Source of the DNA: Hallella colorans
GTDB lineage: Bacteria > Bacteroidota > Bacteroidia > Bacteroidales > Bacteroidaceae
Direction: 5' to 3'
NCBI RefSeq assembly: GCF_003096815.1
Contig: NZ_QENY01000014.1
Coordinates: 5,647 to 69,646, forward strand
Length of the DNA stretch: 64,000 nucleotides
The position numbers and the translations under genes are program-made. Positions within the stretch are counted from its first letter, which is position 1; each line of letters begins with the position of its first letter. Shown one piece after another: positions 351 to 19,608 of the stretch. The notes below the pieces were generated by a model. The model ran no database searches. It saw only the letters and a list, made by a program, of their open reading frames with translations, and was not told the DNA's origin.

Positions 351-1526
351 ATGCTTGCTGATGGTCGGGTTAGTCTCTATTTGGAGTATTATCTCGGTAG
401 AGAAGAAACGCCTATTTTGGACGATAATGGTAATCCTGTTTTGTATGAAACAGGTAAGATGATAGGCAAACCCAAAGTTCACATCAAACACAACAGACGA
501 AAAGAAAACTTGCAGTTGTATTTAATAGCCAAGCCACGCACTCCTGCCGAGCGACAGCAAAATAAAGAAACGCTTGAATTGGCTGCCAAAATTCGTGCGG
601 AGCGTGAACAGCAGTTTAAGGAGAGTATGCTTGGCTATCGTTTGAAAAAAGATAGAAGTATCAACTTCTTAGACTACTATCAGGCTTACATAGATAGCTA
701 CACGAAGAAAGACCTACGAATGATTAAGATTGCCTTGAATCGTTTTAAGGACTTTCTGAAAGAGCATTATCCGCTCTATGAGTTTAGTATCAAGCCCGAT
801 TTGATAACAAAGGAAATGATGGAACGATTTGTGGAGTATCTGCAATCACGAAGTGTTGGTGAAGGTGCAAAGAGTATCTACCAGCGTTTCAAGAAAGTGG
901 TGCGCTACGCTATTGACCATGAAGTGATGTTGAAAGACCCATGTAAGGGTGTGGTGTGCAAGGTCGATGAGCAGATCTTGCGCAAGAATGTGCTGTCAAT
1001 GGATGAAATCCAATCTCTGATTCAATGCCATTACGACAACGAGAATCCGAATGTTAGACGAGCATTTATTCTATGTCTATATTGCGGTCTGCGCTTCTGC
1101 GATGTGAAAGATCTAACCTATAAGAACATTGATTACACCAATCGCCTATTGAAGTTTGAGCAGAATAAAACCAAAGGACATTCTGCCAATAGTGGTGTCG
1201 TTATCCCTTTGAACGATGGTTTGCTTTCATTGATAGGAGAAGCTCCCGAAGACTTAGAGACCTCCATTTTTAACTTACCCACATACGAGAGTTGTTGCAA
1301 ATCTGTAAAACGGTGGGTAAAGCGTGCAGGCATCAATAAACACATAAGTTGGCATTGTGCCCGCCATAGCTTTGCCGTGAACATACTCAATAATGGTGCC
1401 AATATCAAGACCGTCGCAAGTCTTTTAGGGCATAGCGGATTGAAGCATACCGAGAAATACACTCGTGCTGTGGATAAATTGAAGTCAGAGGCTATCAATA
1501 GTTTGCCAGAATTGACTACTATGTAA
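351..1526 (+). CDS. Tyrosine recombinase, element integrase
   Basis: Phage-integrase family site-specific recombinase, expected to integrate and excise the element. The N-terminal region has the arm-binding-type pattern seen in Bacteroidales integrases, a SAM-like core-binding domain covers about residues 100-195, and the catalytic domain follows. Catalytic residues are visible: Arg in CGLRFCD, the HCARH box, GHSGLKHTE, and the nucleophile Tyr in EKYTR. It sits just inside the left repeat and reads inward, the usual place for an integrase. An upstream ATG at 300 lies in the same frame and encodes MAKLENKAKENPKLE, which resembles the start of other family members, but a TAA at 345-347 interrupts it before the ATG at 351. 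The protein may therefore restart at 351 or be partly damaged. Confidence 0.88.
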   Translation: MLADGRVSLYLEYYLGREETPILDDNGNPVLYETGKMIGKPKVHIKHNRRKENLQLYLIAKPRTPAERQQNKETLELAAKIRAEREQQFKESMLGYRLKKDRSINFLDYYQAYIDSYTKKDLRMIKIALNRFKDFLKEHYPLYEFSIKPDLITKEMMERFVEYLQSRSVGEGAKSIYQRFKKVVRYAIDHEVMLKDPCKGVVCKVDEQILRKNVLSMDEIQSLIQCHYDNENPNVRRAFILCLYCGLRFCDVKDLTYKNIDYTNRLLKFEQNKTKGHSANSGVVIPLNDGLLSLIGEAPEDLETSIFNLPTYESCCKSVKRWVKRAGINKHISWHCARHSFAVNILNNGANIKTVASLLGHSGLKHTEKYTRAVDKLKSEAINSLPELTTM

Positions 1527-1569
1527 GAAAATAATGTTATATTTGCAAGGAATCTTTAAACTTATAAAA

Positions 1570-2643
1570 ATGGAAGACTTTAATTTTTCAGAGAACGAGG
1601 CGGAAGAGGTTGTTAATATAGAATACGATATTACATCTTATCCATCTGATTATACATTGATGGGACTTGTCGAAATGTTTAAAAATGGGGATATCATGAT
1701 TCCTGACTATCAGCGTGGTTATGTTTGGAAAATTCAGCAAGCGTCACTGCTAATAGAGTCATTTTTAATTGGACTACCAGTTCCCCCTATTTTTCTTTAT
1801 ATTGACGATGAGAATAAAAATTTGGTTATTGACGGTCAACAACGTCTATTAAGCATTGTTTATTTCTTTGAAGGATACTTTGGTAAAGAATCCCAAACTG
1901 GGAAACGACAGGTTTTTAAATTGTCTGGATTAAATCCCCAAAACAAGTTTTATAATTGTACTTATAATGATTTAGATGATAAAGATAAAAGGAAATTAAC
2001 TTCTTCTGTTCTGAGAGCAATTAATATAAGACAACTTTCACCAGCAGAAGAAAGTACATGTGTATATCATATTTTTGAACGACTTAATACTGGGGGGACA
2101 CCACTTAAATCACAAGAGATTAGAAATTGCGTGTTTAGGAGCGACTTCTTAAACAAGTTGAAAGAGCTAAATAGGCATCCATCGTGGCGCATAGTGATAA
2201 ACAAAAAAGAACTAGTTAAAAATCAATCAGATGTAGAGTTGATTTTAAGGGTTTATGGACTTGCTTACTATTTAAGTAAATATGAAAAGCCTATGAAAGA
2301 ATTTCTCAACAAAGTAGCCAAGAAGGAGATGAAAGGCTACTCAAATATTGATCATTTTGCTAGTGCTTTTGAAAGGACTGCTGACTACATAAACTCTGAG
2401 CTCCGAGTTAAACCTTTTAATGTGCGCGGTCCTTTCAATGTGTCTTTATTTGATTCTGTATTTTGCAATATCTTATTGCATATAGATAATTTACCAACAA
2501 ATCTGTCTCAGAGATATGAAGATCTTCTTTTAGATCAAAAGTTTACGGATTTAACAACATTAGCAACTACTGATGAAAAAATCCTTAAAGAGAGATTTAG
2601 CTATGTAGAATCCTTTTTGTTTAGCGATGGCATACACCGATAA
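1570..2643 (+). CDS. DUF262 (GmrS/ParB-like) protein, probable defence gene
   Basis: 357-residue protein with the DUF262 fold. PDYQRGYVW lies at about residues 55-63, and DGQQR at 88-92 is the conserved nucleotide-handling motif of this family. In GmrSD-type enzymes DUF262 works with a DUF1524 HNH nuclease; no HNH motif is seen here. Instead the gene overlaps by 17 nt a small HEPN-like gene, which suggests translational coupling and a sensor/effector pair. I chose the ATG at 1570 because the 12 residues before it (from 1534) look non-coding and an A-rich stretch precedes it. It lies between the integrase and the restriction operon, a typical cargo position. Family call is firm; a defence role is inferred. 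Confidence 0.82.
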   Translation: MEDFNFSENEAEEVVNIEYDITSYPSDYTLMGLVEMFKNGDIMIPDYQRGYVWKIQQASLLIESFLIGLPVPPIFLYIDDENKNLVIDGQQRLLSIVYFFEGYFGKESQTGKRQVFKLSGLNPQNKFYNCTYNDLDDKDKRKLTSSVLRAINIRQLSPAEESTCVYHIFERLNTGGTPLKSQEIRNCVFRSDFLNKLKELNRHPSWRIVINKKELVKNQSDVELILRVYGLAYYLSKYEKPMKEFLNKVAKKEMKGYSNIDHFASAFERTADYINSELRVKPFNVRGPFNVSLFDSVFCNILLHIDNLPTNLSQRYEDLLLDQKFTDLTTLATTDEKILKERFSYVESFLFSDGIHR

Positions 2644-3103
2644 GTTTCTGCCTACAGATGAGTTAATTAATGAGATTAATACATTAAAACCTCATATTTC
2701 GCAAGTAGCTTTACCTAAGTTTACAGGCGCAATATCGGTAAGTGCCGTAACTTCATATGAACTTGCTATAAAAGAGATACTTATAGATTATGCTCATAGT
2801 AAGCATAATTTATTTGGCTGTTTTGTTCAAAATTACCTTTCTAGGTTAAATGGTAGAATAGAAATATCTGACTTAAAAAAGGAAATAAAAAAAATCGATA
2901 ATGCTTTAGCTGCGAATTGGGAAGAAAAAATTACAGAAGTAGAACGAGTTGAGCCATCCGTGAGATCCTGTTATCAAAACTTGATTCAAAGTAGGCATTC
3001 GTATGTTCATGCAAACCGAATAAACCTTGATTATGACGAATGTATTAATGATTTTAATATAGGGAAGAAGATAATAGAAGCACTACGTAGTGCCATGGTA
3101 TAA
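2627..3103 (+). CDS. HEPN-domain protein with R-x4-H motif, putative RNase partner
   Basis: 158-residue, mostly alpha-helical protein. R123-HSYV-H128 fits the R-x4-H catalytic motif of HEPN ribonucleases, and the layout resembles HEPN_MAE_28990 or RiboL-PSP-type HEPN proteins, often found beside DUF262 genes. The start overlaps the DUF262 stop by 17 nt in another frame, so the two genes are almost surely co-expressed. A likely role is RNA cleavage during phage or plasmid challenge, controlled by the DUF262 partner; this is inferred from family and neighbourhood. A toxin/antitoxin-like relation to the DUF262 protein is an alternative. No signal peptide or membrane segment is seen. Confidence 0.72.
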   Translation: MAYTDKFLPTDELINEINTLKPHISQVALPKFTGAISVSAVTSYELAIKEILIDYAHSKHNLFGCFVQNYLSRLNGRIEISDLKKEIKKIDNALAANWEEKITEVERVEPSVRSCYQNLIQSRHSYVHANRINLDYDECINDFNIGKKIIEALRSAMV

Positions 3104-3374: not shown

Positions 3375-6086
3375 ATGAACCCAGAAGAAAAGGCACGAGT
3401 TATCATAGACAGCATGTTTGAAGAAGCAGGCTGGAAAGTCGTTGATAGGGATAAGTATGCTCCAAATATGACGGCTGTGGCTATCAGGGAAGGATTGATG
3501 GTTGGCAATAGGGAAGCCGATTATTTATTGTTTCTCAATGGAAAAGCAGTAGGGGTATTGGAAGCTAAGCGCATTGAAACAGATATAAATTCTGATATTG
3601 TGCAAGAACAAGCTCGCTTATATACACGTAGTTGTCCTAAGTGGTGTCAAGCATGGTTTCCTAATATACCTTTACCCCTTGCCTATGTTGCTAATAGTAG
3701 AGACCTGATGTTTTATGATACTCGAAAGAGTAATTCTGAATTTGAGTATTGTAAGAAAATTCATACCCCCAAAGAAGTTAAAAAGTTATTAGGCTTGGAG
3801 GATGATTATGTTGGCTTGCCCACATTGAACCCCAAAGGATTGCGTGCGTGCCAATATGAGGCAATCACTCAATTAGAGCAATCGTTTCGTAATGGTGAAA
3901 ATCGTGCTTTGATGGTTTTAGCAACAGGTGCGGGGAAAACTTATACTGCTTGTTTGGCAGCCTATCGTATGTTAGCTTTCACGCCAATGAAGCGCATTTT
4001 GTTTTTGGTGGATAGGAATAATTTGGGTAAGCAGGCTGAAACCGAATTTGGTACATTCCGTTTGACAGAGAATGGCGATCCATTCAATACTATTTTTACG
4101 GTTAATCGCTTGAAGTCTTCAAGTGTACCAACGGATAGCAATGTGGTAATATCCACTATACAACGACTTTTTTCATTGTTAAAGGGTGACGAAATTACCG
4201 ATAATGATGAGGACGATGAAGAAATAGAAGATAAGGAAATGATACTCCCAGAGAATCCTAATCTTCCTTCAGATTTCTTTGATATGATAATTATCGATGA
4301 GTGCCACCGTTCCATTTATGGTAATTGGCAGAAAGTCCTCAATTATTTCTCAAAAGCAAAGTTGATAGGATTAACAGCAACACCTGTTCCTGGGACTAAG
4401 GCTTTCTTCAAAGGCAATATCATCGTAAACTATACGTTGGAGAAGTCTATCGTTGATGGCGTAAATGTTGATTGTCGTGTTTATCGTATCAAAACGCAAG
4501 CAACAGAGAATGGCGGTGCTATTCTCGAAGGTGATAAAGTAAAAAGAGAAACATGCTATACGGGGCAAGTTCAGACTATTAACAACCAAGAAACGAAAAA
4601 TTATACTCGTGAGGAACTTAATCGTAGTATTATCAACCCTGCACAGATTAAGCTGATATTGGAAACCTATCGTGATGCGGTATATACTGAAATGTTTACC
4701 GACCCGAAGCGAAAAGCTAATTTAGATTATTTGCCCAAAACACTTATATTTGCACTCAATGAAAATCATGCAACTAATATCGTGCAAATAGCAAAAGAAG
4801 TGTTTGGACACAACGATAATCGTTTCGTACAAAAAATCACTTATTCGGCAGGTGATAGCAATGAGCTGATACGACAGTTCCGCAACGATAAGGATTTCCG
4901 CATCGCCGTAACTTGCACATTGGTGGCAACAGGTACTGACATTAAACCCCTTGAAGTGGTCATGTTTATGCGTGATGTGGCATCAGAACCGTTATATATT
5001 CAGATGAAAGGACGAGGTGTGCGTACCATAGGAGACGAGCAACTACGAAATGTAACGCCCAATGCTTACAGTAAGGATTGTTTCTTTTTAGTAGATGCCG
5101 TAGGTGTTACAGAGCATGAAAAGTCTATTACTTCTCCCTCTGACAGTGCAACCTCCAAACTAATGTCCTTGAAAGAACTTTTGGAGAAAATAACGCATGG
5201 TAATGTAAATGATAACAATTTGAGATTATTAGCAAGTCGCTTATCTCGTATCAGTCATAAATGTGAAGAAACAGACCGTGAAAAATTTCTTGGTTTGGCT
5301 CATCAAAGCATGATGGATATTGCATCTGACATCTTTGCAGCATTTGAAAACGACTCGCTTCCCGAGTATATTGATGTCAATGCGCCAAACTTAGAGCGCA
5401 AAGCCTTAGTGCGTAATATTGCAAATCACCCGGAAGCAAGAGAATTCCTGTTGATTCTCAATGCAGGTTTTATTGAAACTTTGATGCCAGGCGAGGATAT
5501 GCTTATATCAAAAGGATTCTCACAGGAAGAAGCGCAGGCAACTACTTCTGCTTTTGAAGCCTATTGTGAGGAGCATAAGGATGAAATAGAAGCATTGCGC
5601 ATCATCTACAATAATCAAGGCGAGCCTCTTACTTATGCGATACTAAAAGATTTGGAGAATAAATTGAAATTTGCAAATAGTAAGTTTAATACTTCATTAC
5701 TTTGGAACTCTTATGCCATAATCAATCCCCCAATGGTAAAACATAGTTCTACAAAAGAGGAAAAAGAAGCTCTTACAAACATTATCCAGTTAGTGCGTTA
5801 TACTTTTCACCAGATAGAAAGGCTCGAAAGCTTGTATCCATCTGCCAACCAACGTTTTAATCTGTGGTGTGGACAAAATCAACGACCTCTTACAGAAGAG
5901 CAGATTGGAGTGATGCAACAAGTATTTAGCTATATTGCATCGAATGGTTATTGTACAATTACAGAGATTAAAGACAATGATAAGACACAAGCGGCGCAAC
6001 TTATCCGTGCCTTTGGTGGGAAAAATATAGCAAACGAAGCTTTGGCTTCATTATCACAATTTATCATTTACAGAAAAATAGCTTAA
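3375..6086 (+). CDS. hsdR: Type I restriction enzyme, R subunit
   Basis: 903-residue restriction and translocation subunit of a type I R-M complex. The N-terminal PD-(D/E)xK endonuclease shows READYLLF and EAKR at about residues 46-66. The SF2 motor follows: Walker A ATGAGKTYTA near residue 183, DECH box IIIDECHRSIYG near 312, SAT-like GLTATP, and motif VI around QMKGRGVRT. The C-terminal region would contact HsdM/HsdS. The gene starts 271 nt after the HEPN gene and ends 3 nt before hsdM, so the RM genes form one operon. Length and motif order are normal and no frameshift is visible, so the subunit looks intact. Confidence 0.96.
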   Translation: MNPEEKARVIIDSMFEEAGWKVVDRDKYAPNMTAVAIREGLMVGNREADYLLFLNGKAVGVLEAKRIETDINSDIVQEQARLYTRSCPKWCQAWFPNIPLPLAYVANSRDLMFYDTRKSNSEFEYCKKIHTPKEVKKLLGLEDDYVGLPTLNPKGLRACQYEAITQLEQSFRNGENRALMVLATGAGKTYTACLAAYRMLAFTPMKRILFLVDRNNLGKQAETEFGTFRLTENGDPFNTIFTVNRLKSSSVPTDSNVVISTIQRLFSLLKGDEITDNDEDDEEIEDKEMILPENPNLPSDFFDMIIIDECHRSIYGNWQKVLNYFSKAKLIGLTATPVPGTKAFFKGNIIVNYTLEKSIVDGVNVDCRVYRIKTQATENGGAILEGDKVKRETCYTGQVQTINNQETKNYTREELNRSIINPAQIKLILETYRDAVYTEMFTDPKRKANLDYLPKTLIFALNENHATNIVQIAKEVFGHNDNRFVQKITYSAGDSNELIRQFRNDKDFRIAVTCTLVATGTDIKPLEVVMFMRDVASEPLYIQMKGRGVRTIGDEQLRNVTPNAYSKDCFFLVDAVGVTEHEKSITSPSDSATSKLMSLKELLEKITHGNVNDNNLRLLASRLSRISHKCEETDREKFLGLAHQSMMDIASDIFAAFENDSLPEYIDVNAPNLERKALVRNIANHPEAREFLLILNAGFIETLMPGEDMLISKGFSQEEAQATTSAFEAYCEEHKDEIEALRIIYNNQGEPLTYAILKDLENKLKFANSKFNTSLLWNSYAIINPPMVKHSSTKEEKEALTNIIQLVRYTFHQIERLESLYPSANQRFNLWCGQNQRPLTEEQIGVMQQVFSYIASNGYCTITEIKDNDKTQAAQLIRAFGGKNIANEALASLSQFIIYRKIA

Positions 6087-7511
<1,425 letters not shown>

Positions 7512-7516
7512 ACGGA

Positions 7517-8677
7517 ATGGGTAGTAATATGGTATTAAGTCAAGAGCAGCAATTTGATGAGGTAATCAACATCATTTTGCAGCATCAGAGCCGTGCTTCA
7601 AGGGCGGTGAACGAAGAAACATTGCTTATGGCTTGGAATGTGGGCGGTTATGTTTCCCACAAATTGAAATCGGAAGAATGGGGTAGCAAAGTTGTTACTC
7701 AACTTTCTGAATATATCCGTACCAAACAACCAAAGCTGAGAGGATATAGTAGAAGAAGTATATATAATATGGTGCAGTTCTACGAAGAGTATTCTTCAGA
7801 AAACTTCTTATCTATGGCATCACAATACCTATCTAAAGAATTTGTGCAGCCAAAAATTGCACAAACTAATGATAAGCCTTTGATACAAGATTATCCAGGG
7901 ATTGACACCTTTCCTATGCAAGTTGTCCAGCCACGAATTGGACAATTTCCCAAACTCCTCACACTTACCACTTTAACGAATCATATAGAGATATTATGTC
8001 GTTGTAAAAGTAGTGAAGAACGGTTGTTCTATATTCTGTATGCGCACAAAGAACATTTGGTAAAAAGAGAGCTTCAGCGTAGCATTACCAACCAGACCTA
8101 CACAACATTGTTAGGCGATAAAAAGAATATGTCAAAAGGCTTATTACAGACTTATCCTAATGCTCCTATTGTATTTAAGGACACTTTGTTTGTTGATTTC
8201 CTCGGATTACCTCAAAAACATAGTGAAACAAAGCTCAAAAAAGGGCTGATAGAGCACATGAAGCAATTTATCCTTGAGTTGGGTAAAGATTTTATCTTTA
8301 TGGATCAAGAGTATAATCTCAATGTGGGTGCATCAACTTTCAAAGCTGACTTATTGTTTTTCCATCGTGGGTTACAAGCACTTGTTGCGGTAGAACTGAA
8401 AAAGACAAAGTTTCATCCTCGTGATCTCGGACAGTTGGAGTTTTATCTCGAAGCCCTTGATCGTGATGTAAAGCGAAGCAACGAAAACCCTTCTATTGGT
8501 ATTCTGTTATGTCCTGATGCAGATAAAATGGTGGTAGAATACGCCATGAGCCGTAGTATGAGCCCAACTTTGATAACAGAATACAAACGTATTCTTATTC
8601 CGCAAGAGCGTATGCAAGAGCAGCTCAATGAATATTGTAACCTATTCTTGGAAGAGCAAAACAACACAAATGATTAA
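7517..8677 (+). CDS. DUF1016/YhcG-type PD-(D/E)xK nuclease inside the RM operon
   Basis: 386-residue protein of the YhcG family: a DUF1016 N-terminal helical domain (about residues 10-160, including LRGYSRRSIYNMVQFYEEY) and a C-terminal PDDEXK nuclease domain. The nuclease signature appears as FKADLLFFHRG followed by VAVELKKTKF around residues 275-300. YhcG proteins recur in type I RM operons of Bacteroidales. Here the gene sits between hsdM and hsdS with gaps of 5 and 11 nt, so it is made with the RM subunits. Its biochemical role is unknown: it may be an accessory nuclease of the RM complex or a separate defence activity. ATG 7517 is used; Met5 (7529) is also possible. Confidence 0.85.
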   Translation: MGSNMVLSQEQQFDEVINIILQHQSRASRAVNEETLLMAWNVGGYVSHKLKSEEWGSKVVTQLSEYIRTKQPKLRGYSRRSIYNMVQFYEEYSSENFLSMASQYLSKEFVQPKIAQTNDKPLIQDYPGIDTFPMQVVQPRIGQFPKLLTLTTLTNHIEILCRCKSSEERLFYILYAHKEHLVKRELQRSITNQTYTTLLGDKKNMSKGLLQTYPNAPIVFKDTLFVDFLGLPQKHSETKLKKGLIEHMKQFILELGKDFIFMDQEYNLNVGASTFKADLLFFHRGLQALVAVELKKTKFHPRDLGQLEFYLEALDRDVKRSNENPSIGILLCPDADKMVVEYAMSRSMSPTLITEYKRILIPQERMQEQLNEYCNLFLEEQNNTND

Positions 8678-8688
8678 TTTGGTAGATA

Positions 8689-10068
8689 ATGGACACGAAG
8701 AAATTAAGACAAAAGATATTAGACCTTGCCATTCACGGCAAACTTGTACCACAAGACTCTAACGATGAGCCAGCATCAGTTCTTCTTGAGCGCATCCGTG
8801 CAGAAAAAGAACGCTTAATCTCAGAAGGAAAAATAAAGCGTAGTCGAAAGACCGTGAAAACTTCCGATACGCACCATTATGAGCAGGATGTGCCGAATGG
8901 CTGGTGCAAAACCGCCTTATCAGAGATAATAACTTTACTTTCTGGTAGGGATTTACAGCCGACTCAATACAATTCTTTTGAAAAGGGAATACCTTATATT
9001 ACGGGAGCATCTAACATTGATAACAATACCATCATTATTAACAGGTGGACTACAGCTCCTATTACTATTTCACATAAAGGTGATTTATTAATTACATGTA
9101 AAGGCACAATAGGGAAATTAGCGTTCAATTCGGTTGGGGATTTACATATCGCACGTCAACTTATGTCACTTCAATTTATTGAGCCTTTAGTAAGCAAATA
9201 TCTTTTCTATTGTTTAGAGGAAAGAATAAGCGCCATAAAACAAATGGATAACGGTTTGATTCCTGGTATTGACCGTTCTATCATTCTAAATCAAATTATT
9301 CAACTACCTCCTCTTGCCGAGCAGCATCGCATTGTTGCTGAAATAGAGCGATGGTTTACTCTTGTTGATACAATTGAACAGGGCAAGGAAAATTTGGAAA
9401 CATCAATCAAACAAGCCAAGGGCAAAATCCTTGACCTTGCCATTCATGGCAAACTCGTACCACAGGATGCAAGCGATGAACCCGCGTCGGAATTGCTCAA
9501 ACGCATCAATCCCAAGGCACAAATCACTTGTGATAACGAGCATTATCCAAGTATGTGGCATATCGCTATGTTAGGCGATTTATTTACACACAATACAGGC
9601 AAGGCACTCAATTCGGCTAATAAAGAAGGTAAGCTAAAAGACTATCTAACCACATCTAATGTCTATTGGAATAGATTTGACTTCTCTGTAGTTAAACAAA
9701 TGCCATTTAAAGAAAATGAACTTGATAAATGCACCGTAGCCAAGGGAGATTTGTTGGTATGCGAAGGCGGAGATGTTGGACGTTCTGCAATATGGACTTA
9801 TGATTATAACATTTGCATACAAAACCATATTCATAGATTAAGAAGCAAGGAAGGAGTATACACACCTTTCTATTATTATGTTCTAAAATCATATAAAGCC
9901 CATAACATAATCGGCGGTAAAGGCATTGGACTTTTAGGCTTATCATCTAAAGAGTTACATAAGATATTGTTTCCCGTACCTCCCTTCGCAGAACAAAAGC
10001 GTATAGTTCAGAAAATAGAAGAATTGTTTCCATTACTTGATTGTATAGAACAGACTTTGCAAGCATAG
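8689..10068 (+). CDS. hsdS: Type I RM specificity subunit, expressed copy of the shufflon
   Basis: 459-residue two-TRD specificity subunit. A conserved helix region with ILDLAIHGKLVPQD is at about residues 10-30 and recurs after TRD1 at about 248-265. TRD1 spans about 65-205 and TRD2 about 287-430. The phrase AEQ.RIV closes each half. The TRDs decide which DNA sequence HsdM methylates and HsdR restricts. The DNA encoding HHYEQDVP (8871-8895) and CDNEHY (9527-9546) is repeated in inverted orientation in the silent copy downstream, exactly at the borders of TRD1 and TRD2. This is the copy joined to the operon promoter and so the one expressed in this assembly. Confidence 0.95.
   Translation: MDTKKLRQKILDLAIHGKLVPQDSNDEPASVLLERIRAEKERLISEGKIKRSRKTVKTSDTHHYEQDVPNGWCKTALSEIITLLSGRDLQPTQYNSFEKGIPYITGASNIDNNTIIINRWTTAPITISHKGDLLITCKGTIGKLAFNSVGDLHIARQLMSLQFIEPLVSKYLFYCLEERISAIKQMDNGLIPGIDRSIILNQIIQLPPLAEQHRIVAEIERWFTLVDTIEQGKENLETSIKQAKGKILDLAIHGKLVPQDASDEPASELLKRINPKAQITCDNEHYPSMWHIAMLGDLFTHNTGKALNSANKEGKLKDYLTTSNVYWNRFDFSVVKQMPFKENELDKCTVAKGDLLVCEGGDVGRSAIWTYDYNICIQNHIHRLRSKEGVYTPFYYYVLKSYKAHNIIGGKGIGLLGLSSKELHKILFPVPPFAEQKRIVQKIEELFPLLDCIEQTLQA
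8871..8895 (+). repeat. hsdS inversion site 1 (5' border of TRD1), expressed copy
   Basis: 25-bp sequence whose exact reverse complement is at 12556-12580 in the silent hsdS copy. It encodes HHYEQDVP just before TRD1 (about residues 62-69). Recombination between the two sites would invert about 3.7 kb and swap the whole TRD1-to-C-terminus block into expression. Confidence 0.88.
9527..9546 (+). repeat. hsdS inversion site 2 (5' border of TRD2), expressed copy
   Basis: 20-bp CTTGTGATAACGAGCATTAT encodes the CDNEHY border before TRD2. Its reverse complement is exact at 11902-11921. The 14-bp core ATAACGAGCATTAT recurs in direct orientation at 10943-10956, ahead of the forward silent cassette. 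Inversion here would exchange TRD2 only, and would also flip the recombinase gene lying between the sites. Confidence 0.85.
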
Positions 10069-10095
10069 CCTTGTCGGGTTATGCCTGCAAAGCGA

Positions 10096-10899
10096 TTACC
10101 AATTCACCACTTTATCCACTATCTTTTGTTGCTCACTCGCTGTCCTGCGTAGATAGATGCGAGTGGTCTCTATGCTTTCATGCCCCATAAGGTCGGCTAA
10201 TAGCGCAAGGTCGTTGAAACGGTCAAGGAAATTCTTTGCAAAGCGGTGGCGGAAAGAATGTGGATAAACCACATCACGATTGATGCCATACTTTTCAGCA
10301 AAATGTTTGAGCTGTTGGGCAATACCACGTGTTGTGATTCGATTGCCAAAACGATTGAGGAATATATACCCCGAACTTAATCCCCTCTCTTTAATCCACT
10401 TATTTGCTTCTGTCCGTAAATTCTTAGGAATATATAAACGCCTTATCTTGCCACCTTTACTATAAAGATCGAGATACCCTACTTGTACATGCTCTGCTTT
10501 AATTTGCAACAATTCACTAACACGTGCACCCGTTGCTGCCATAAACCATATTGTGAAGTACCACTCATCAAAGCCATCAGCCTTTAGCTTGGTCTTCAAG
10601 AACTTGTAGTCGGCATCACTTATCACATTTTCCAAGAAGTTCTTTTGCTGTACCTTAACAAACTTCACTTTTAGTTTGTCTTGCTTTGAGTACTCCAAGA
10701 ATTTGTTAATAGCTTGCAAGCGTAGATTGACCGTTTGGGGCTTAAAATTCTCTACAAGAAATCCTTTGTATGCTAAAAGATTCTTTTTGTTCACTTCTTT
10801 GTAATGTTCAAAGAAGTAGTTTACTGTCCACACATACGATGTGATGGTGTTTGGTGCTAAGTTGGTCTTGGCAAGATGTTTCTGAAATGTTGTTACCAT
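10096..10899 (-). CDS. Tyrosine recombinase, probable hsdS invertase
   Basis: About 268-residue XerC/D-type recombinase, shorter than the element integrase and without an arm-binding domain. A SAM-like domain (residues ~5-85) is followed by catalytic residues: Arg in ATGARVSEL, Lys in KGGKIRRL, HSFRHRF, GHESIETT and Tyr in TRIYLRR. It lies between the expressed hsdS and the silent cassettes, as in other type I RM shufflons, so it most likely catalyses inversion at the repeated sites. The start at 10899 (MVTTFQKHL) is preferred because the 18 residues before it look non-genic. The promoter must lie in about 40 bp between this start and the site at 10943. Confidence 0.9.
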   Translation of the reverse strand: MVTTFQKHLAKTNLAPNTITSYVWTVNYFFEHYKEVNKKNLLAYKGFLVENFKPQTVNLRLQAINKFLEYSKQDKLKVKFVKVQQKNFLENVISDADYKFLKTKLKADGFDEWYFTIWFMAATGARVSELLQIKAEHVQVGYLDLYSKGGKIRRLYIPKNLRTEANKWIKERGLSSGYIFLNRFGNRITTRGIAQQLKHFAEKYGINRDVVYPHSFRHRFAKNFLDRFNDLALLADLMGHESIETTRIYLRRTASEQQKIVDKVVNW

Positions 10900-10942
10900 A
10901 TTACATTGATTTATAATGAATAAAGTAACAATATAATAAAGT

Positions 10943-10967
10943 ATAACGAGCATTATGCGCAGTTGCC
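10943..10967 (+). repeat. Inversion site 2 of the forward silent TRD cassette
   Basis: 25-bp ATAACGAGCATTAT plus GCGCAGTTGCC matches the reverse complement of 11891-11915 exactly. It encodes NEHYAQLP in frame with the silent cassette that follows. Recombination with 11891-11915 exchanges the TRD2 segments of the two silent cassettes without touching the expressed gene. Confidence 0.87.
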
Positions 10968-11433
10968 AAAAGGATGGAGTGTAATATCAATGCAAGATGT
11001 TTGTAAACTAAAAGATGGAATAAAGCTGGACAGTACTCCTTTGGTAAATTTGGATGTAAAGTATTTAAGAGGGATTTCAGCAGGAAAAGCCATTAACAGT
11101 GGTAAGTTTGTAACAGCTAATTCCTATATGATTTTAGTAGATGGTGAGAATTCAGGCGAAGTATTTAGAACCCCGATAGATGGTTATCAAGGAAGTACAT
11201 TTAAGCAGTTAGATATAGACCAAAATGTCAATGAGAAATATATTCTCAATGTAATAAACCTACATCGAAAGGCATTAAGAGAGAATAAAGTGGGGTCTGC
11301 AATACCTCACTTGAATAAAAAGTTATTCAAGGCTATTGCCGTCCCTTTGCCACCATATAATGAGCAGATAAGAATAGTAGAAGCGATTAAATCGACATTC
11401 AATATACTTGATGCAATCAAGGAGAATTTATAA
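10963..11433 (+). pseudogene. Silent hsdS half-cassette (TRD2 type), forward
   Basis: Promoterless partial specificity gene, about 156 codons. The frame is open from the inversion site (encoding NEHYAQLPKGW) to the C-terminus ending DAIKENL. It has one target-recognition domain and the terminal conserved helix with NEQIRIVEAI, but no N-terminal half. It can only be expressed after recombination places it behind an N-terminal half. Its stop meets the stop of the inverted cassette at 11428-11433. It is a stored specificity module rather than a decayed gene. Confidence 0.85.
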
Positions 11434-11890
11434 GTTCTCCATGATTGCATCTAACACATTAAATAAATTATCGATTGCTGTAACAATACGCTTCTGTTCT
11501 TCCTTCGGAGGGATAGGAATTGGTAGTTTAGAGTATTCTGAAATCCAATAACGTTTATGAGTATCACCAATTAGTTGTGTGATGCTCATAAATGCAGCAA
11601 CATATTTGATTGATATGTTTTGGTTTACCTGCAAAATCTTCATTGCAGAAGATTTAACCTTAAAAGGAAAAGTTACTAATTTTGAGGCAGTTGTAAAATC
11701 ATCGAAGATAATACAAGGTAATTTAGAATATAGACCTTCTTCTTCATCGGTGTAACCTATTATAAATGATTTACCAGCTGTTAGGACTGGAGTTAGGTAA
11801 CTATCATCATAGTTCGTAGAACTAACAATATAGTCTGTTGGCTGCTCATATTCTATAATATTTTCAAGTAAACAAACACTCCATCCTCTC

Positions 11891-11921
11891 GGCAACTGCG
11901 CATAATGCTCGTTATCACAAG
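11891..11921 (-). repeat. Inversion site 2 of the inverted silent hsdS
   Basis: Reverse complement of both TRD2-border sites. 11902-11921 pairs with 9527-9546 (20 bp) in the expressed gene, and 11891-11915 pairs with 10943-10967 (25 bp) in the forward cassette. It is the hub through which the third TRD2 can reach the expressed locus. Confidence 0.87.
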
Positions 11922-12555
11922 GTATCTGTGCCTTCGGATTGATACGCTTGAGTAGTTCTGATGCTGGCTCATCATTCGGGTCTTGTGGTACGAGTTTGCC
12001 ATGAATAGCGAGGTCGAGGATTTTGTTTTTTGCTTGCTTAATAGCAGTTTCTAAGCCCTCTTTACTTTTCTCGATTGTATCTATCAAAGCGAACCAACGC
12101 TCTATCTCTGCTACTATACGTTGTTGTTCTGCAAAAGGAGGAAGAGGAATGGGGATTCGATTGAGATTATCCTGAGATAATTTGGGTTGTGCGGATCCTG
12201 TAATGTACATTTCTAAATTCATAGAATTTATTACAATAGCTACAAAATCTAATACTTTCTTAGGATAAGAATCTAAAATATGAGCATGGTTATTAACCCA
12301 AAATTTTCCTTCTGCAAAGAATGCATTATTCTTTGCACGAGATAATAAATTAGCTCCATCTTCGCCGACTAATAGCAATCGCTCATTAAAGATATAGTTA
12401 TCAACTTTATCTATAATTCCAGCAGCACCATAATAGTCGTATTTTTTGTTTTGTTGTTTATTTCTAATTGCAGATGCAATAGGTATTCGTTCATTATCAC
12501 GATTTATCGTACAATTTTCCAATGTTGTCCACACCCACCCCCGTGGCACTTCAAA

Positions 12556-12580
12556 CGGCACATCCTGCTCATAATGGTGC
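12556..12580 (-). repeat. Inversion site 1 in the inverted silent hsdS
   Basis: Exact 25-bp reverse complement of 8871-8895. It marks the outer edge of the shufflon; the sequence beyond it (12583 onward) no longer resembles hsdS. Confidence 0.88.
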
Positions 12581-12654
12581 ATATAAGAAGAATTAAGCTA
12601 TTACATGTTTTCAATGGTATGTAATAAGAGAGAAAGATATGAGTTTGACAATAA

Positions 12655-13223
12655 AAGGGGGAAATACTCACAAACAGTCAAGAGGTTATAAGGTTCTTTG
12701 TCCAACCAGCTATCAATAAAAATGCAACTGTAAATGCAACTGTAAATGTAGAAAATGCAACTGTAAGTCCCAATGATACTATTGATAAAATATATCCTTC
12801 CACCTTGATGATTTTATTTTGAAAATCATAGTTCCAAAAGTTATGTCAGAACAAGAAATGTCTGTGAAAGAGAATACAGATAAGGTAGCTGATACCCTCT
12901 CGAAGGTACATAAAAAGGTTACTGATGAGCAGGCAAAGGTATCTGATAGGGTTACTGATAAACAAACTAAGGTTACTGATAAGCGAGAGATGATAGTAGA
13001 AAAAGCAGTGGCTAAAGCATTAGAAAATGGTGATAAATTAACGCAAAATCGTATTACCATTTTGCAGCTAATGACAGAAAATTCCTATATAACCAAGATG
13101 GAACTTGCTTCTGCTGTTGGTTTTAGTGCGACTTCTATTATGTGTAATATCGAATATATGCGTAATAAGTACCTTCGCCGTGTTGGACCAGATAATGGTG
13201 GCTTCTGGGAAATCATAGAATAA
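12655..13223 (+). pseudogene. Remnant of an AlbA_2/AAA_4-type regulator, C-terminal winged helix left
   Basis: Two open stretches in neighbouring frames. 12655-12822 has no start codon and encodes repeats of the type NATVNATVNVENATV. 12819-13223 (best ATG 12843) encodes a repetitive charged linker with repeated VTDKQTKVTDK-like units and a winged-helix end around ILQLMTENSYITKMELASAV and GFWEIIE. Schlafen/AlbA_2-like ATP-binding regulators of Bacteroidales often end in this way, with low-complexity repeats before a wHTH. The main part of the protein is absent, so I read this as the tail of a gene lost during assembly of the RM cargo. The 12843-13223 piece could still make a small DNA-binding protein. 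Confidence 0.5.
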
Positions 13224-13933: not shown

Positions 13934-14854
13934 TTATAAATGTATTTTACGTTTTTTCTTTTTCTTCTTTTTATCAAGTGTATTATAAACTTCCGCAGGG
14001 ACTGTGCTGTGAGACTGAAACAGGTCTAATCCTCCCTCAATGAAATCATTGACAAGTGTGCTCGTAACATCTGTAACATCTGATATAAGATTGATGGTTC
14101 CTTGTGCCTGTTGACAGTTTTCTTTGTTATTCTGCTTCAAGGCAAAATCAATCTTGAAATAGCTGCAACTCCTGTCCACCTTTGAGCCATTGAAATGATA
14201 GCCGTTCTTCTCAAAGATAATGCCTTGTACTTCTTGTGTATTGCCTTTATACTTAAATCGTACATCAATCTCTTCTTTTCTCAGGTAGGCAAGTAACGTT
14301 TTCCAATCCATGCTTCTGGGAATCTTTTCCCTCAAAGCCAGATAAATCTCATACTTGGTCTTGTCGGGTTCTTTCAAGCGGTGCTCCTTGATTTTCTCCT
14401 TGCCACTGGCAAAGTATAAATCATATTTGGCGGTCAGTTCCTTACAAATCTTCTCACTTCTGAATCTGTCGTTCTTGTCAGAAATGATTTTGCCGTTATT
14501 GTCTATCCTATTGAAAGCAATATGGATATGCGGATGATCCTTGTCAAAATGGCGACCTATGATATACTGCGTATCTTTTATCCCCATTTTCTCCATATAC
14601 TCACGAGCGACTTGTGTCATGAACTCGTTGCTTAATTTGAGAAAATCCTGTGTGGAGAAACTCAAGGAGATATGTCCGACGACCTTACTCACTCTTGGGT
14701 TTAGATTTGTTTGGTCGATGAAGCTCTGAATGATGTGGCTAATATCATCTGTCCTTACACCCGAACTATCTATAAGTTCCGTTCCCTTCTTCGGATCGAG
14801 GATGTAGTTAATAACACCCTTGAAGCCTGAACCTTTCATAAGCTTAGCTATCAT
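13934..14854 (-). CDS. Relaxase / mobilization nuclease (MobB type)
   Basis: 306-residue relaxase domain protein. The start MIAKLMKGSGFKGVINYIL is typical of Bacteroides MobB relaxases. The metal-binding histidine cluster appears in GRHFDKDHPHIHIAFNRID around residues 122-140, and a candidate catalytic Tyr lies in the N-terminal region. It nicks oriT and pilots the strand for transfer, using the conjugation machinery of a helper element, since no type IV secretion genes are in this window. It overlaps mobC by 4 nt, so the two are translationally coupled. Confidence 0.92.
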   Translation of the reverse strand: MIAKLMKGSGFKGVINYILDPKKGTELIDSSGVRTDDISHIIQSFIDQTNLNPRVSKVVGHISLSFSTQDFLKLSNEFMTQVAREYMEKMGIKDTQYIIGRHFDKDHPHIHIAFNRIDNNGKIISDKNDRFRSEKICKELTAKYDLYFASGKEKIKEHRLKEPDKTKYEIYLALREKIPRSMDWKTLLAYLRKEEIDVRFKYKGNTQEVQGIIFEKNGYHFNGSKVDRSCSYFKIDFALKQNNKENCQQAQGTINLISDVTDVTSTLVNDFIEGGLDLFQSHSTVPAEVYNTLDKKKKKKKRKIHL

Positions 14855-15204
14855 CTTCGTATCAAATTTAGGATTTCATCAATCTTGGCAAGGATAAGTT
14901 TATGGAAGGGCGCAATAGCATAGAAGCCGTCCGCATTGGCACGATGTGCCAACTGATTGAGATTGTTTGCCATACCACACAGCTTGCGGATGAAGTCAGC
15001 CTGCTCAATGGTCAAACGTTCAATCACATTCCCTTTATCGAGAACTTTTCTTACAAATTCACTCATGGATATTCCTGCACTCTTAGCTTTGCCTTTGAGG
15101 GTATAGTAATCCTCAGTAGTAAGTTTTACCGTGATGCGGTATTTCTTTTTCTCGGCTGCGCCTTTGGTTGGACGACCGCCTTTGTTGTATTCTGATTTAG
15201 TCAT
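14851..15204 (-). CDS. MobC-like relaxosome accessory protein
   Basis: 117 residues. The basic N-terminus MTKSEYNKGGRPTKGAAEKK is followed by a ribbon-helix-helix-like segment (KYRITVKLTTEDYYTLKGKA) and a MobC region containing ANNLNQLAHRAN. MobC proteins bind oriT and help the relaxase open the nic site. ATG 15204 is preferred over upstream starts because the 48 extra codons would run through the candidate oriT hairpin. It overlaps the relaxase start by 4 nt. Confidence 0.88.
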   Translation of the reverse strand: MTKSEYNKGGRPTKGAAEKKKYRITVKLTTEDYYTLKGKAKSAGISMSEFVRKVLDKGNVIERLTIEQADFIRKLCGMANNLNQLAHRANADGFYAIAPFHKLILAKIDEILNLIRR

Positions 15205-15270
15205 AATTGTTTCTTTAATTGATTGATGGAGACCAGCGGGATGATTCTCTGCAACGACTGTCAGGAGTGG

Positions 15271-15306
15271 GCAAGTGGTTTTGGTATGCCCAAAACATAA
15301 ACTTGC
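15271..15306. other. Candidate oriT: nested inverted repeat upstream of mobC
   Basis: Outer arms GCAAGT (15271-15276) and ACTTGC (15301-15306) enclose inner arms GTTTTGG (15278-15284) and CCAAAAC (15290-15296). It lies in the 140-bp gap between the primase stop and the mobC start, directly upstream of mobC-relaxase, which is where oriT usually sits in such elements. The nick site is not identified. Confidence 0.5.
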
Positions 15307-15344
15307 TCCCCCAGTAAACAGATTATGTAAAACTATTCTTGTAA

Positions 15345-16274
15345 TCATAGCTTAATCCCTTTGGTCTTCTTATTTTCTGCTTTCTCTGAATGCTTGAATT
15401 CAGCACATAAATAGTCGTTTAGATCCTTGAAATCACTATACAAAGAAGATGAATCTAAGACTGAACGACTCAATTCTTTCGATAATTGTTTATAAGCATT
15501 CCTGCCTGCATCGTCATTATCCAAGTAGCATTGGATGCTGTCGTAATGCGACAACTTCTCTGTAACCTTATGAATATTTGATACAGTATTGAGGACTATG
15601 TAATCTTGTTGGTTTAGCCCTGTTCGCTGCGGATTCTTCAATTTTCTTAGTGTCATAAAAGACAAAAAGTCCATAAAACCCTCGAAAAGAAAGCAAATCT
15701 TCTTCGGCTCATTGGCATAGAAAACACTAATATCCTTTGGAGCAATGCAGCCTTTGAAGAATGGGTTGCGTATTTCATACCCACCTGCACTATTGGGAAA
15801 ACCTATCCAGAAATAGTGCTTACCATTAGAGTCGTAATGGAGTTCGTTACACACAGCTGTGACTACCTCCATGTCAATACATCTTTCATGTAAATATCTG
15901 ATAAGGGCAGGATGTGTCAAAGGTAGAATTTTTAAGTTCTCAAAAGATTGTGCATGTTGTTGCGATTCCTTCTTAGTGTAAGGAATAGGCAAGGAATGTA
16001 CACAGCTTGGAACATTGCGTTCTATCTGTCTAATAAGATAGGAAATATCGGAGGACTTATATAGTTCCTCTGCCAGAGCAATGATGTTTCCACCTTTTCC
16101 TACCCCGAAGTCATACCATTGGTTGATTTCTGTATTTACCTTGAATGAAGCTTGGCGTTCAGTACGAAAGGGAGAGAGATACCACAACTTGTTACCTTGT
16201 TGTTTTATAGGTGTATGCCCCAGACTTGCAAGAAAATCTTGCAGCTTTATTGTTTTAATTTTTTGAATGTTCAT
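15345..16274 (-). CDS. DNA primase, CHC2/TOPRIM type, element-encoded
   Basis: 309 residues from ATG 16274 (MNIQKIKTIKLQDFLASLGH). The N-terminal part has the layout of a CHC2 primase domain (LWYLSPFRTERQASFKVN, WYDFGVGKGGNIIALA) but lacks the zinc-binding cysteines, as is common in Bacteroidales mobile primases. The C-terminal part is TOPRIM-like: ICFLFEGFMDFLSF near residue 200 and YLDNDDAGRNAY near 255. It would make primers for copying the transferred single strand or the circular form. The 18 residues upstream of this start look non-coding. Confidence 0.85.
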   Translation of the reverse strand: MNIQKIKTIKLQDFLASLGHTPIKQQGNKLWYLSPFRTERQASFKVNTEINQWYDFGVGKGGNIIALAEELYKSSDISYLIRQIERNVPSCVHSLPIPYTKKESQQHAQSFENLKILPLTHPALIRYLHERCIDMEVVTAVCNELHYDSNGKHYFWIGFPNSAGGYEIRNPFFKGCIAPKDISVFYANEPKKICFLFEGFMDFLSFMTLRKLKNPQRTGLNQQDYIVLNTVSNIHKVTEKLSHYDSIQCYLDNDDAGRNAYKQLSKELSRSVLDSSSLYSDFKDLNDYLCAEFKHSEKAENKKTKGIKL

Positions 16275-19288: not shown

Positions 19289-19478
19289 TTTGCTATATTT
19301 TAAGGTGGGTATCTATTTGCAAAGATAAAGCATTCGGTGGAGAAAAAGCCAAAGAAGGGAAGGAAACAGAATAAAAGGGAAGAGTTGTCGTTAATTAAAT
19401 ATAAAACTAAGAGATGAAAAATTACAAAAGTACACCTTTCGCATTGTTTTGTTACAAAGTACACTTTTAGTACGCTTT
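19289..19478. repeat. Right copy of the ~190-bp direct repeat
   Basis: Matches 2-191; the first 156 bp are identical. It ends 8 bp before the A/T-tract of the tRNA-Leu terminator, so the element joins the chromosome just downstream of the tRNA gene. It holds the same minus-strand promoter box, here reading into the element. No copy of the tRNA 3' end is seen at the left boundary, unlike classic tRNA-targeted integration. Confidence 0.85.
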
Positions 19479-19523: not shown

Positions 19524-19608
19524 TGGTACCCAGACCCGGGATCGAACCGGGATGGATTGCTCCACTGGTGTTTGAGACCAGCGCGTCTACCGATTCCGCC
19601 ATCTGGGC
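19524..19608 (-). tRNA. tRNA-Leu (CAA)
   Basis: 85 nt with encoded CCA. The acceptor stem is GCCCAGA/TCTGGGT, the anticodon loop CTCAAAC gives anticodon CAA (codon TTG), the T arm is GGTTCGATCC, and a long variable arm fits leucine. It lies just outside the right repeat of the mobile element; tRNA-Leu is a known target region for Bacteroidales mobilizable elements. Confidence 0.95.

Follow-up and report, generated by a model that had tools for sequence, protein, structure and literature searches.

The window analysed here, a 64,000-nucleotide stretch of the Hallella colorans contig NZ_QENY01000014.1 (positions 5,647 to 69,646 of the forward strand), carries a type I restriction-modification (RM) locus in which the specificity gene hsdS is present in more than one copy. 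We consider it very probable, at roughly 0.88, that this locus is a PsrA/CreX-type hsdS inverton on a mobilizable integrative element. The locus is a known kind of switch; what is added here is the assignment of its recombinase to PsrA, the finding of reversed segments at both borders of the target recognition domains (TRDs), and a model in which the recombination sites carry two addresses.

The type I RM operon is complete. The genes hsdR (3375-6086, plus strand; restriction subunit; Pfam ResIII, EcoEI_R_C, HSDR_N) and hsdM (6090-7511, plus strand; N6-adenine methyltransferase subunit; Pfam N6_Mtase, HsdM_N), a YhcG/DUF1016 PDDEXK nuclease gene (7517-8677, plus strand; PF06250, PF17761) and a complete hsdS of TRD1a-TRD2a composition (8689-10068, plus strand; 459 aa; two Methylase_S stretches) follow one another on the same strand. 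Located 3' of this hsdS are, in order, a gene for a tyrosine recombinase of the PsrA/CreX family (10096-10953, minus strand; PF00589; likely start at an ATG near 10899), a lone TRD2 cassette with one TRD (TRD2c; 10957-11433, plus strand; Methylase_S) and an inverted two-TRD hsdS copy (TRD1b-TRD2b; 11428-12582, minus strand; two Methylase_S stretches), which lacks the N-terminal conserved region and, with this 5' part missing, would be silent. The two hsdS copies share a 249-bp central region that is merely 75% alike.

An earlier note on this DNA, made from the sequence alone, had reported exact inverted repeats at the TRD borders, a 14-bp core shared by the third cassette, and a tyrosine recombinase between the hsdS copies, and all of these are indeed present. 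The exact inverted repeats lie at 8871-8895/12556-12580 (25 bp) and 9527-9546/11902-11921 (20 bp). The 14-bp ATAACGAGCATTAT of the third cassette is identical to that of the expressed gene (9533-9546 = 10943-10956) in direct orientation, and the third cassette has a further exact 25-bp inverted match to the silent gene (10943-10967/11891-11915). A length of 25 bp is also the longest exact inverted match anywhere in 8689-12590 with arms more than 300 bp apart; in 100 dinucleotide-preserving shuffles of the same interval the longest match was 10-16 bp, which rules out a chance origin of the repeats. Five sites can be placed on these repeats. Two A-class sites with the core GCACCA mark the TRD1 borders, A1 at 8871-8876 (plus strand, within the repeat 8871-8895) and A2 at 12575-12580 (minus strand, within the repeat 12556-12580). 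Three B-class sites, for the TRD2 borders, have the core CGAGCA, namely B1 (9537-9542, plus strand, within the repeat 9527-9546), B2 directly upstream of the recombinase (10947-10952, plus strand) and B3 (11906-11911, minus strand). Contrary to a reading of all these pairs as inverting ones, the 9527 and 10943 copies are in the same orientation, so recombination between these two copies (cores 9537 and 10947) would not invert DNA but excise TRD2a together with the recombinase.

The recombinase reading frame is open and Xer-like. NCBIfam Xer models match it below their curated cut-offs, Xer structures also match, and the catalytic R-K-HxxR-H-Y residues are present as read by eye beside Xer alignments. 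Its best relatives in the plasmid collection are recombinases that adjoin hsdS genes: it is 69.8% identical to a relative on Ruminococcus albus pRUMAL02, 65.8% to one on a Segatella hominis plasmid, and 63.9% over 263 aa to psrA, named "tyrosine-type DNA invertase PsrA", of a Streptococcus dysgalactiae plasmid. Sequence comparison therewith supports its membership in the hsdS-inverting PsrA/CreX family, and the enzyme is presumably active in this strain. That it could be the integrase of the mobile element was ruled out; the element has its own integrase (351-1526, plus strand), with different domains (Phage_integrase, Phage_int_SAM_5, Arm-DNA-bind_5), and the inner enzyme is PsrA-like. A scan of IMG/VR yielded five relatives of the recombinase, which were inspected for repeats and sites (loci outside the window carry L numbers): A-class pairs were seen in L083 and L084 and a CTCTTA pair in L086, and no such site pair was seen in L085 and L087. 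Among 99 phage records matching the recombinase, one did so at 60-80% identity and the other 98 at lower identity. A loose-pattern search of the own genome for a chromosomal dif site returned two matches, compared with one for the reversed control, and was uninformative. The typed-conjugative R. albus pRUMAL02 (L094 5717-10331) carries a PsrA-like locus of its own, with two TRD1-type sites and three TRD2-type cores.

In the mechanism that we propose, the locus-encoded recombinase would pair inverted partner sites and flip the DNA between them, the A-class sites (8871/12575) swapping TRD1 and the B-class sites (9537, 10947, 11906) swapping TRD2. The N-terminal region and operon read-through belong to the copy behind hsdM alone, so flipping would select one of six HsdS proteins for expression and presumably thereby the sequence that is methylated and cut, so that methylome and restriction barrier would differ between alleles. 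When inversion was simulated only between like cores in opposite orientation, eight arrangements resulted, with six expressed alleles (TRD1a or TRD1b combined with TRD2a, TRD2b or TRD2c); all six HsdS reading frames are open (443-460 aa), and the recombinase is intact in 8/8 arrangements. The simulation agrees with the up to six HsdS alleles proposed in the earlier note, whose two first and three second TRDs are likewise supported.

Genome contigs scanned once with the recombinase yielded 37 loci, mostly titled Bacteroidales or Bacteroidia, with hsdM within reach in 32 (only 26% alike in L058/L059). In the own GTDB genus, at least 75 of 398 genomes matched the region in some part of their DNA, in many cases in hsdS pieces only; two candidates were scored per genome, so this count is a lower bound. 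In the own order, 5 of 295 genomes, the own one included, had the recombinase at E <= 1e-60. Across the 33 loci with hsdM in reach, the window included, the recombinase lies on the same strand as hsdM in 16 and on the opposite strand in 17, with the near-duplicates L029/L030, L043/L045 and L058/L059 each counted as a locus of its own; five loci are without hsdM.

Reversed segments were seen between the members of several pairs of loci. Between Hoylesella nanceiensis DSM 19126 (L029) and Hallella seregens ATCC 51272 (L030), 8,063 bp are colinear at 99.8%, followed by a reversed aligned block of 2,867 bp (96.8%), which extends into the central regions and has ~2.4 kb between the B cores, and then by another 4,571 bp colinear at 99.2%. 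Compared letter by letter in L029 positions, the operon hsdS of L030 equals the B1 side of L029 through 8049 but no longer at 8050, and it differs from the B3 side at 7999 and to the left of it. The exchange thus falls within L029 8000-8049, an interval that closes on the right with the B core (8042-8049). In L058 and L059, with a recombinase 57% identical to that of the window, 2,086 bp are reversed at 100% between flanks colinear at 99.1% and 99.7%. In L047/L062 a TRD1-plus-central block (718 bp, 98.2%) is found in exchanged positions, and so is a 511-bp TRD2 cassette (98.6%); the same is true of a 704-bp TRD1 block (99.9%) in L035/L038, and L049/L062 differ by a 2.84-kb reversal at 92.6%. 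Ten pairs were compared in this way, picked among loci with alike TRDs; L043/L045, for example, has no reversal. The window itself differs from Hoylesella marshii in this manner: the recombinase block is reversed, and a relative of TRD2c (94.5%) stands behind TRD1a in H. marshii. TRD1a (window 8896-9297) is 99.75% identical to the H. marshii sequence, compared with 93.4% for the adjoining N-terminal part and 79.5% for the central part, which makes a recent transfer or exchange of this cassette probable.

L058 (segment 8392-10477) and L059 are nearly identical contigs of metagenome-assembled genomes (MAGs), binned as Bacilli, and represent a distant version of the locus. The Phocaeicola coprocola locus L035 contains a 1,442-bp perfect inverted repeat (6582-8023/8959-10400) with two full recombinase copies, either truly duplicated or produced when mixed arrangements were assembled. 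L037, with a recombinase relative 85% identical to that of the window, is a contig of 3.4 kb in an Oscillospiraceae bin, which may reflect misbinning or transfer of the element.

The comparison of the 37 loci and the plasmid records made a minimal recombination site readable and a simple address rule proposable. Listing of the partner sites revealed a recurrent (GA)TA-N8-TAT, and each site resembles ATA(A)-N6-TTAT; strand exchange would take place inside N6. The sites that were counted had been located independently of the core, B1 and B3 by tblastn from where the central region ends and B2 by a TA anchor at a set spacing from the recombinase; the near-duplicates L030, L059 and L045 were removed before the core-identity counts and kept for the YhcG, orientation and TRD-cluster counts. 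B1 agrees with B3 in the left flank and diverges from it in the right; with B2 it is the reverse, the left flanks being unrelated and the right ones alike. The stretch common to all three B sites is ~6 bp across loci (CGAGCA in the window), as against 14 bp within the window alone. The cores of B1 and B3 are identical in 25/26 loci (permuted mean 8.0) and those of B1 and B2 in 22/27 (permuted mean 7.5), and in neither comparison did any of 20,000 permutations reach as high a number. Agreement persisted in loci with a B1 core other than the commonest (B1/B3 in 12/12, B1/B2 in 9/13). The B1/B2 position profile (n=23) presupposes the TA anchor and agreement in the final two letters of the core, and the columns concerned are therefore not evidence. 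TRD1 pairs with a flank match of at least 15/17 had identical cores in 17/17 loci (GCACCA in the window), and A and B cores differed from each other at 2-5 of 6 positions in 17/17 loci compared. The same layout recurs with other letters on plasmids of R. albus (A TTTGCA, B CTCTTA), S. hominis (A TTCCTA, B CAAGTA) and S. dysgalactiae (A GAAACC, B CTCTCC), the core rule holding in three of the four plasmid records examined.

In Xer/dif sites, too, arms of 11 bp enclose a centre of 6 bp, and tyrosine recombinases require matching overlaps. Taken with the core concordance, this leads us to infer that N6 is the strand-exchange overlap and acts as an address separating TRD1 swaps from TRD2 swaps. 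With GCACCA at TRD1 and CGAGCA at TRD2, one enzyme could therefore serve both borders with no TRD1-to-TRD2 joining. We lean, with some reserve, towards the wider reading that, in different phyla, hsdS invertons of the PsrA family rely on a single recombinase and on two mutually incompatible 6-bp overlaps as TRD1 and TRD2 addresses, the letters of which would drift between loci while staying identical among partners; domain order would then be set by overlap identity and not by separate enzymes. No statement of an N6 address rule was found in a partial literature search (titles and abstract starts). PMC6620402 prints a pneumococcal core ATTATGGGAA, in front of which stands CTCTT in the 15-bp and 333-bp repeats and GAAAC in the 85-bp repeat, and itself attributes a function to the 5 bp that precede this core. 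These printed repeats can be read as CTCTTA-TTATGGGAA and GAAACA-TTATGGGAA, that is, as two N6 classes.

A number of observations weigh against this interpretation of the locus and its sites. All the reversed segments lie between genomes or MAGs, and none within one culture. Cores are discordant in L038 (B3) and L033 (B2), no matching B2 stands at the fixed place in L034, L052, L054 and L055, and no TA-anchored B2 does so in L043, L048, L050, L053, L056, L057, L058 and L060; these last eight lie outside the 27 loci counted, and L043 and L060 do have a like-cored site in the pattern-based listing. In some TRD2 sites the right arm fits poorly, reading AGT and not TAT. Among 30 TRD1 sites, 12 had a best partner flank of 11-13/17 and one of 9/17, with identical cores in 0/13; for these 13 the best match was no recognisable A partner, and in L051 it was a B site. 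At a low flank threshold the TRD1 comparison covers 29 loci, 17 with identical cores, and includes 12 whose best match was no recognisable A site. The pattern-based listing shows like A cores in several such loci (e.g. L029, L031 and L033); that listing selects on the core and was kept out of the counts. The Enterococcus faecalis plasmid stretch L096 has no partner pair, its single TTTACA and CGCCTA sites standing unpartnered. The TRDs themselves are also not strictly confined to one position. With 60 TRD1 and 83 TRD2 stretches collected across the loci, the clusters shared between loci that mix the two positions numbered 6/23 at 40% identity, 4/26 at 60%, 2/30 at 80% and 0/22 at 90%. A strict separation of TRD1 and TRD2 families was therefore rejected, as mixed clusters occur up to 80% identity. 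Since mixing falls as identity rises, TRDs appear to keep their position in the short term, as the address idea predicts, and to have moved in the long term.

Alternatively, the concordance of N6 could stem from recent duplication or from coding constraint, with no overlap requirement behind it, which we regard as unlikely. The sites do fall within a coding motif (D-N-x-H-Y / D-T-x-H-Y) of paralogous copies. However, the variable codon of this motif (G, E, R, V or A) differs between loci, even synonymously, and yet is constant inside each locus; B2 keeps the same core although its left flank is unrelated; and the rule holds with other core letters in the R. albus, S. hominis and S. dysgalactiae plasmid loci. 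It is also conceivable, at still lower odds, that the switch has decayed or become locked in this strain, its parts remaining and inversion lost. The right flank of B1, TATCCAAG, indeed departs from TATGCGCAG of B2 and B3. Yet the recombinase is open and its catalytic residues are in place by eye, the three B cores agree with one another as do the two A cores, the six simulated alleles are open, and close relatives of the element are found in opposite states.

General homologous recombination over the shared central region of hsdS, with the recombinase as a bystander, is the least probable of the alternatives and in our view quite improbable. It could draw on the 249 bp that the hsdS copies have in common, on the L029/L030 exchange, which is placeable only within a 50-bp identical stretch, and on the report that the long pneumococcal repeats still recombine without CreX (PMC6620402). 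It fits poorly with the divergence of the central copies in the window (75% alike, longest exact inverted run 25 bp), with TRD1 borders that have no long repeat (35 bp, 91%), with the stretch of ~6 bp that the three TRD2 sites have in common across loci, though 14 bp in the window, and with the finding, given in the same paper, that loss of recA had no significant effect on pneumococcal hsdS switching. A site-specific inverton served by its own PsrA-like enzyme remains our preferred account of the locus.

The earlier note had likened the locus to phase-variable type I RM systems of Streptococcus and of Bacteroides fragilis. The first comparison holds in gene order, recombinase family and site type; the second is merely functional. 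The Streptococcus pneumoniae locus (cod/SpnD39III/Spn556II) likewise consists of hsdR-hsdM-hsdS, a one-TRD partial hsdS, PsrA (CreX) and a second two-TRD hsdS, and the gene order of the window is the cod/SpnIII order up to an inversion of the middle block. The two loci also share inverted repeats at the TRD borders, the recombinase family and a core, ATTATGGGAA, that fits N6-TTATGGGAA. The pneumococcal system has six HsdS alleles, as here, according to PMC7394358; its repeats measure 15, 85 and ~300 bp, whereas the longest exact run of the window is 25 bp. In contrast to the pneumococcal locus, that of the window lies on a mobilizable element in Bacteroidota and includes a YhcG gene in its operon.

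The published reports on pneumococcus disagree on which repeats require the enzyme. Purified PsrA inverts all three hsdS repeat pairs in vitro, and in its absence the two longer repeats invert much less, PsrA being strictly required for the 15-bp repeat (PMC7096588). PMC4948785 describes a requirement for the 15-bp repeat only, and PMC6620402 finds the 15-bp repeat strictly CreX-dependent, the 333-bp repeat partly so, and the 85-bp repeat not. The address rule bears on this printed disagreement as to whether the enzyme acts on the 85-bp repeat: if our address reading is true, the 85-bp repeat belongs to the other address class, which would recast the published 5-bp explanation of its insensitivity to CreX loss.

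As for B. fragilis, the hsdS shufflon of NCTC 9343 (BF1839-1842) resembles the window in being a type I RM system of Bacteroidales with rearranging TRDs and an adjacent tyrosine integrase, and the 638R version sits on an acquired island, ICE2; it differs in having eight alleles and four repeat sets (PMC3090145). The 38-bp repeat printed there is absent from the window, with no match at up to three mismatches. Inverton group 145 of hCom2, as described in PMC11892184, occurs in Bacteroidota and Firmicutes_A, its invertons overlap hsdS, and tyrosine recombinase and relaxase/MobC genes are enriched nearby. Judged from this description, its site type is likely that of the window. The oral Bacteroidales Prevotella intermedia and Porphyromonas gingivalis have phase-variable RM systems of pneumococcal kind (PMC5690328), likened here by description only. 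The present locus thus takes its place as a Prevotella-group example on a mobilizable element beside the hsdS invertons of streptococci, B. fragilis and P. intermedia.

The mobile setting suggested by the earlier note is supported, with integrase, direct repeats, tRNA-adjacent site, relaxase and mobilization protein all present. The element spans ~19.3 kb between 190-bp direct repeats (98% identical) at 2-191 and 19289-19478 (both plus strand), the right one 45 bp from tRNA-Leu(CAA) (19524-19608, minus strand). A relaxase and a NikA/MobC-type mobilization protein are encoded at 13934-15348 (minus strand; PF03432, PF21983, PF05713), and further genes of the element specify a GmrSD-type and HEPN pair, a Toprim primase-like protein, a DUF5906 protein and an HTH_17 protein. 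Among the proteins of the element that were searched, several of them without a match, none was named as part of a conjugation apparatus, so "mobilizable" is a safer term than "self-transmissible". A run of N just upstream of the window and its left repeat (L065 5549-5646) has the same 97-bp stretch on both sides and is a scaffold join inside repeated element ends. Part of the right end of a related element also lies farther to the left (84% over 782 bp), and this and the assembly gap at the left repeat make the left boundary less sure. Of 60 genomes, 56 matched the flank; 12 tRNA-Leu-side loci taken from these (L069-L080, own genome included) showed no joined empty site, and the left-flank kinase homologue was not found in them. 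H. marshii carries the same element (integrase 98%) in the same tRNA-Leu neighbourhood, with further element pieces at that tRNA gene, and near-identical copies of a related element in two genera (L029 in Hoylesella, L030 in Hallella) imply transfer. A restriction barrier of variable specificity that passes from genus to genus would bear on transformability and on encounters with phages.

The YhcG gene is present in a 71-96% version in 16 of the 37 related loci and in a 23-29% version in 11, and was not found in the other 10, some of which are short contigs; with two such different versions after hsdM, the slot seems to be conserved rather than the sequence. Beyond the inverted hsdS copy, the window at 12707-13223 contains short repeats (AATGCAACTGTA) and encodes a protein with repeated KVTDK/KVSDR-like units and no Pfam match. 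Between the integrase and hsdR, an adjacent pair at 1534-3103 encodes a GmrSD_N (DUF262) protein, whose best PADLOC matches are NsnA and PD-T4-2_A, and a RiboL-PSP-HEPN protein, which has none; this pair is a possible second defence system on the element.

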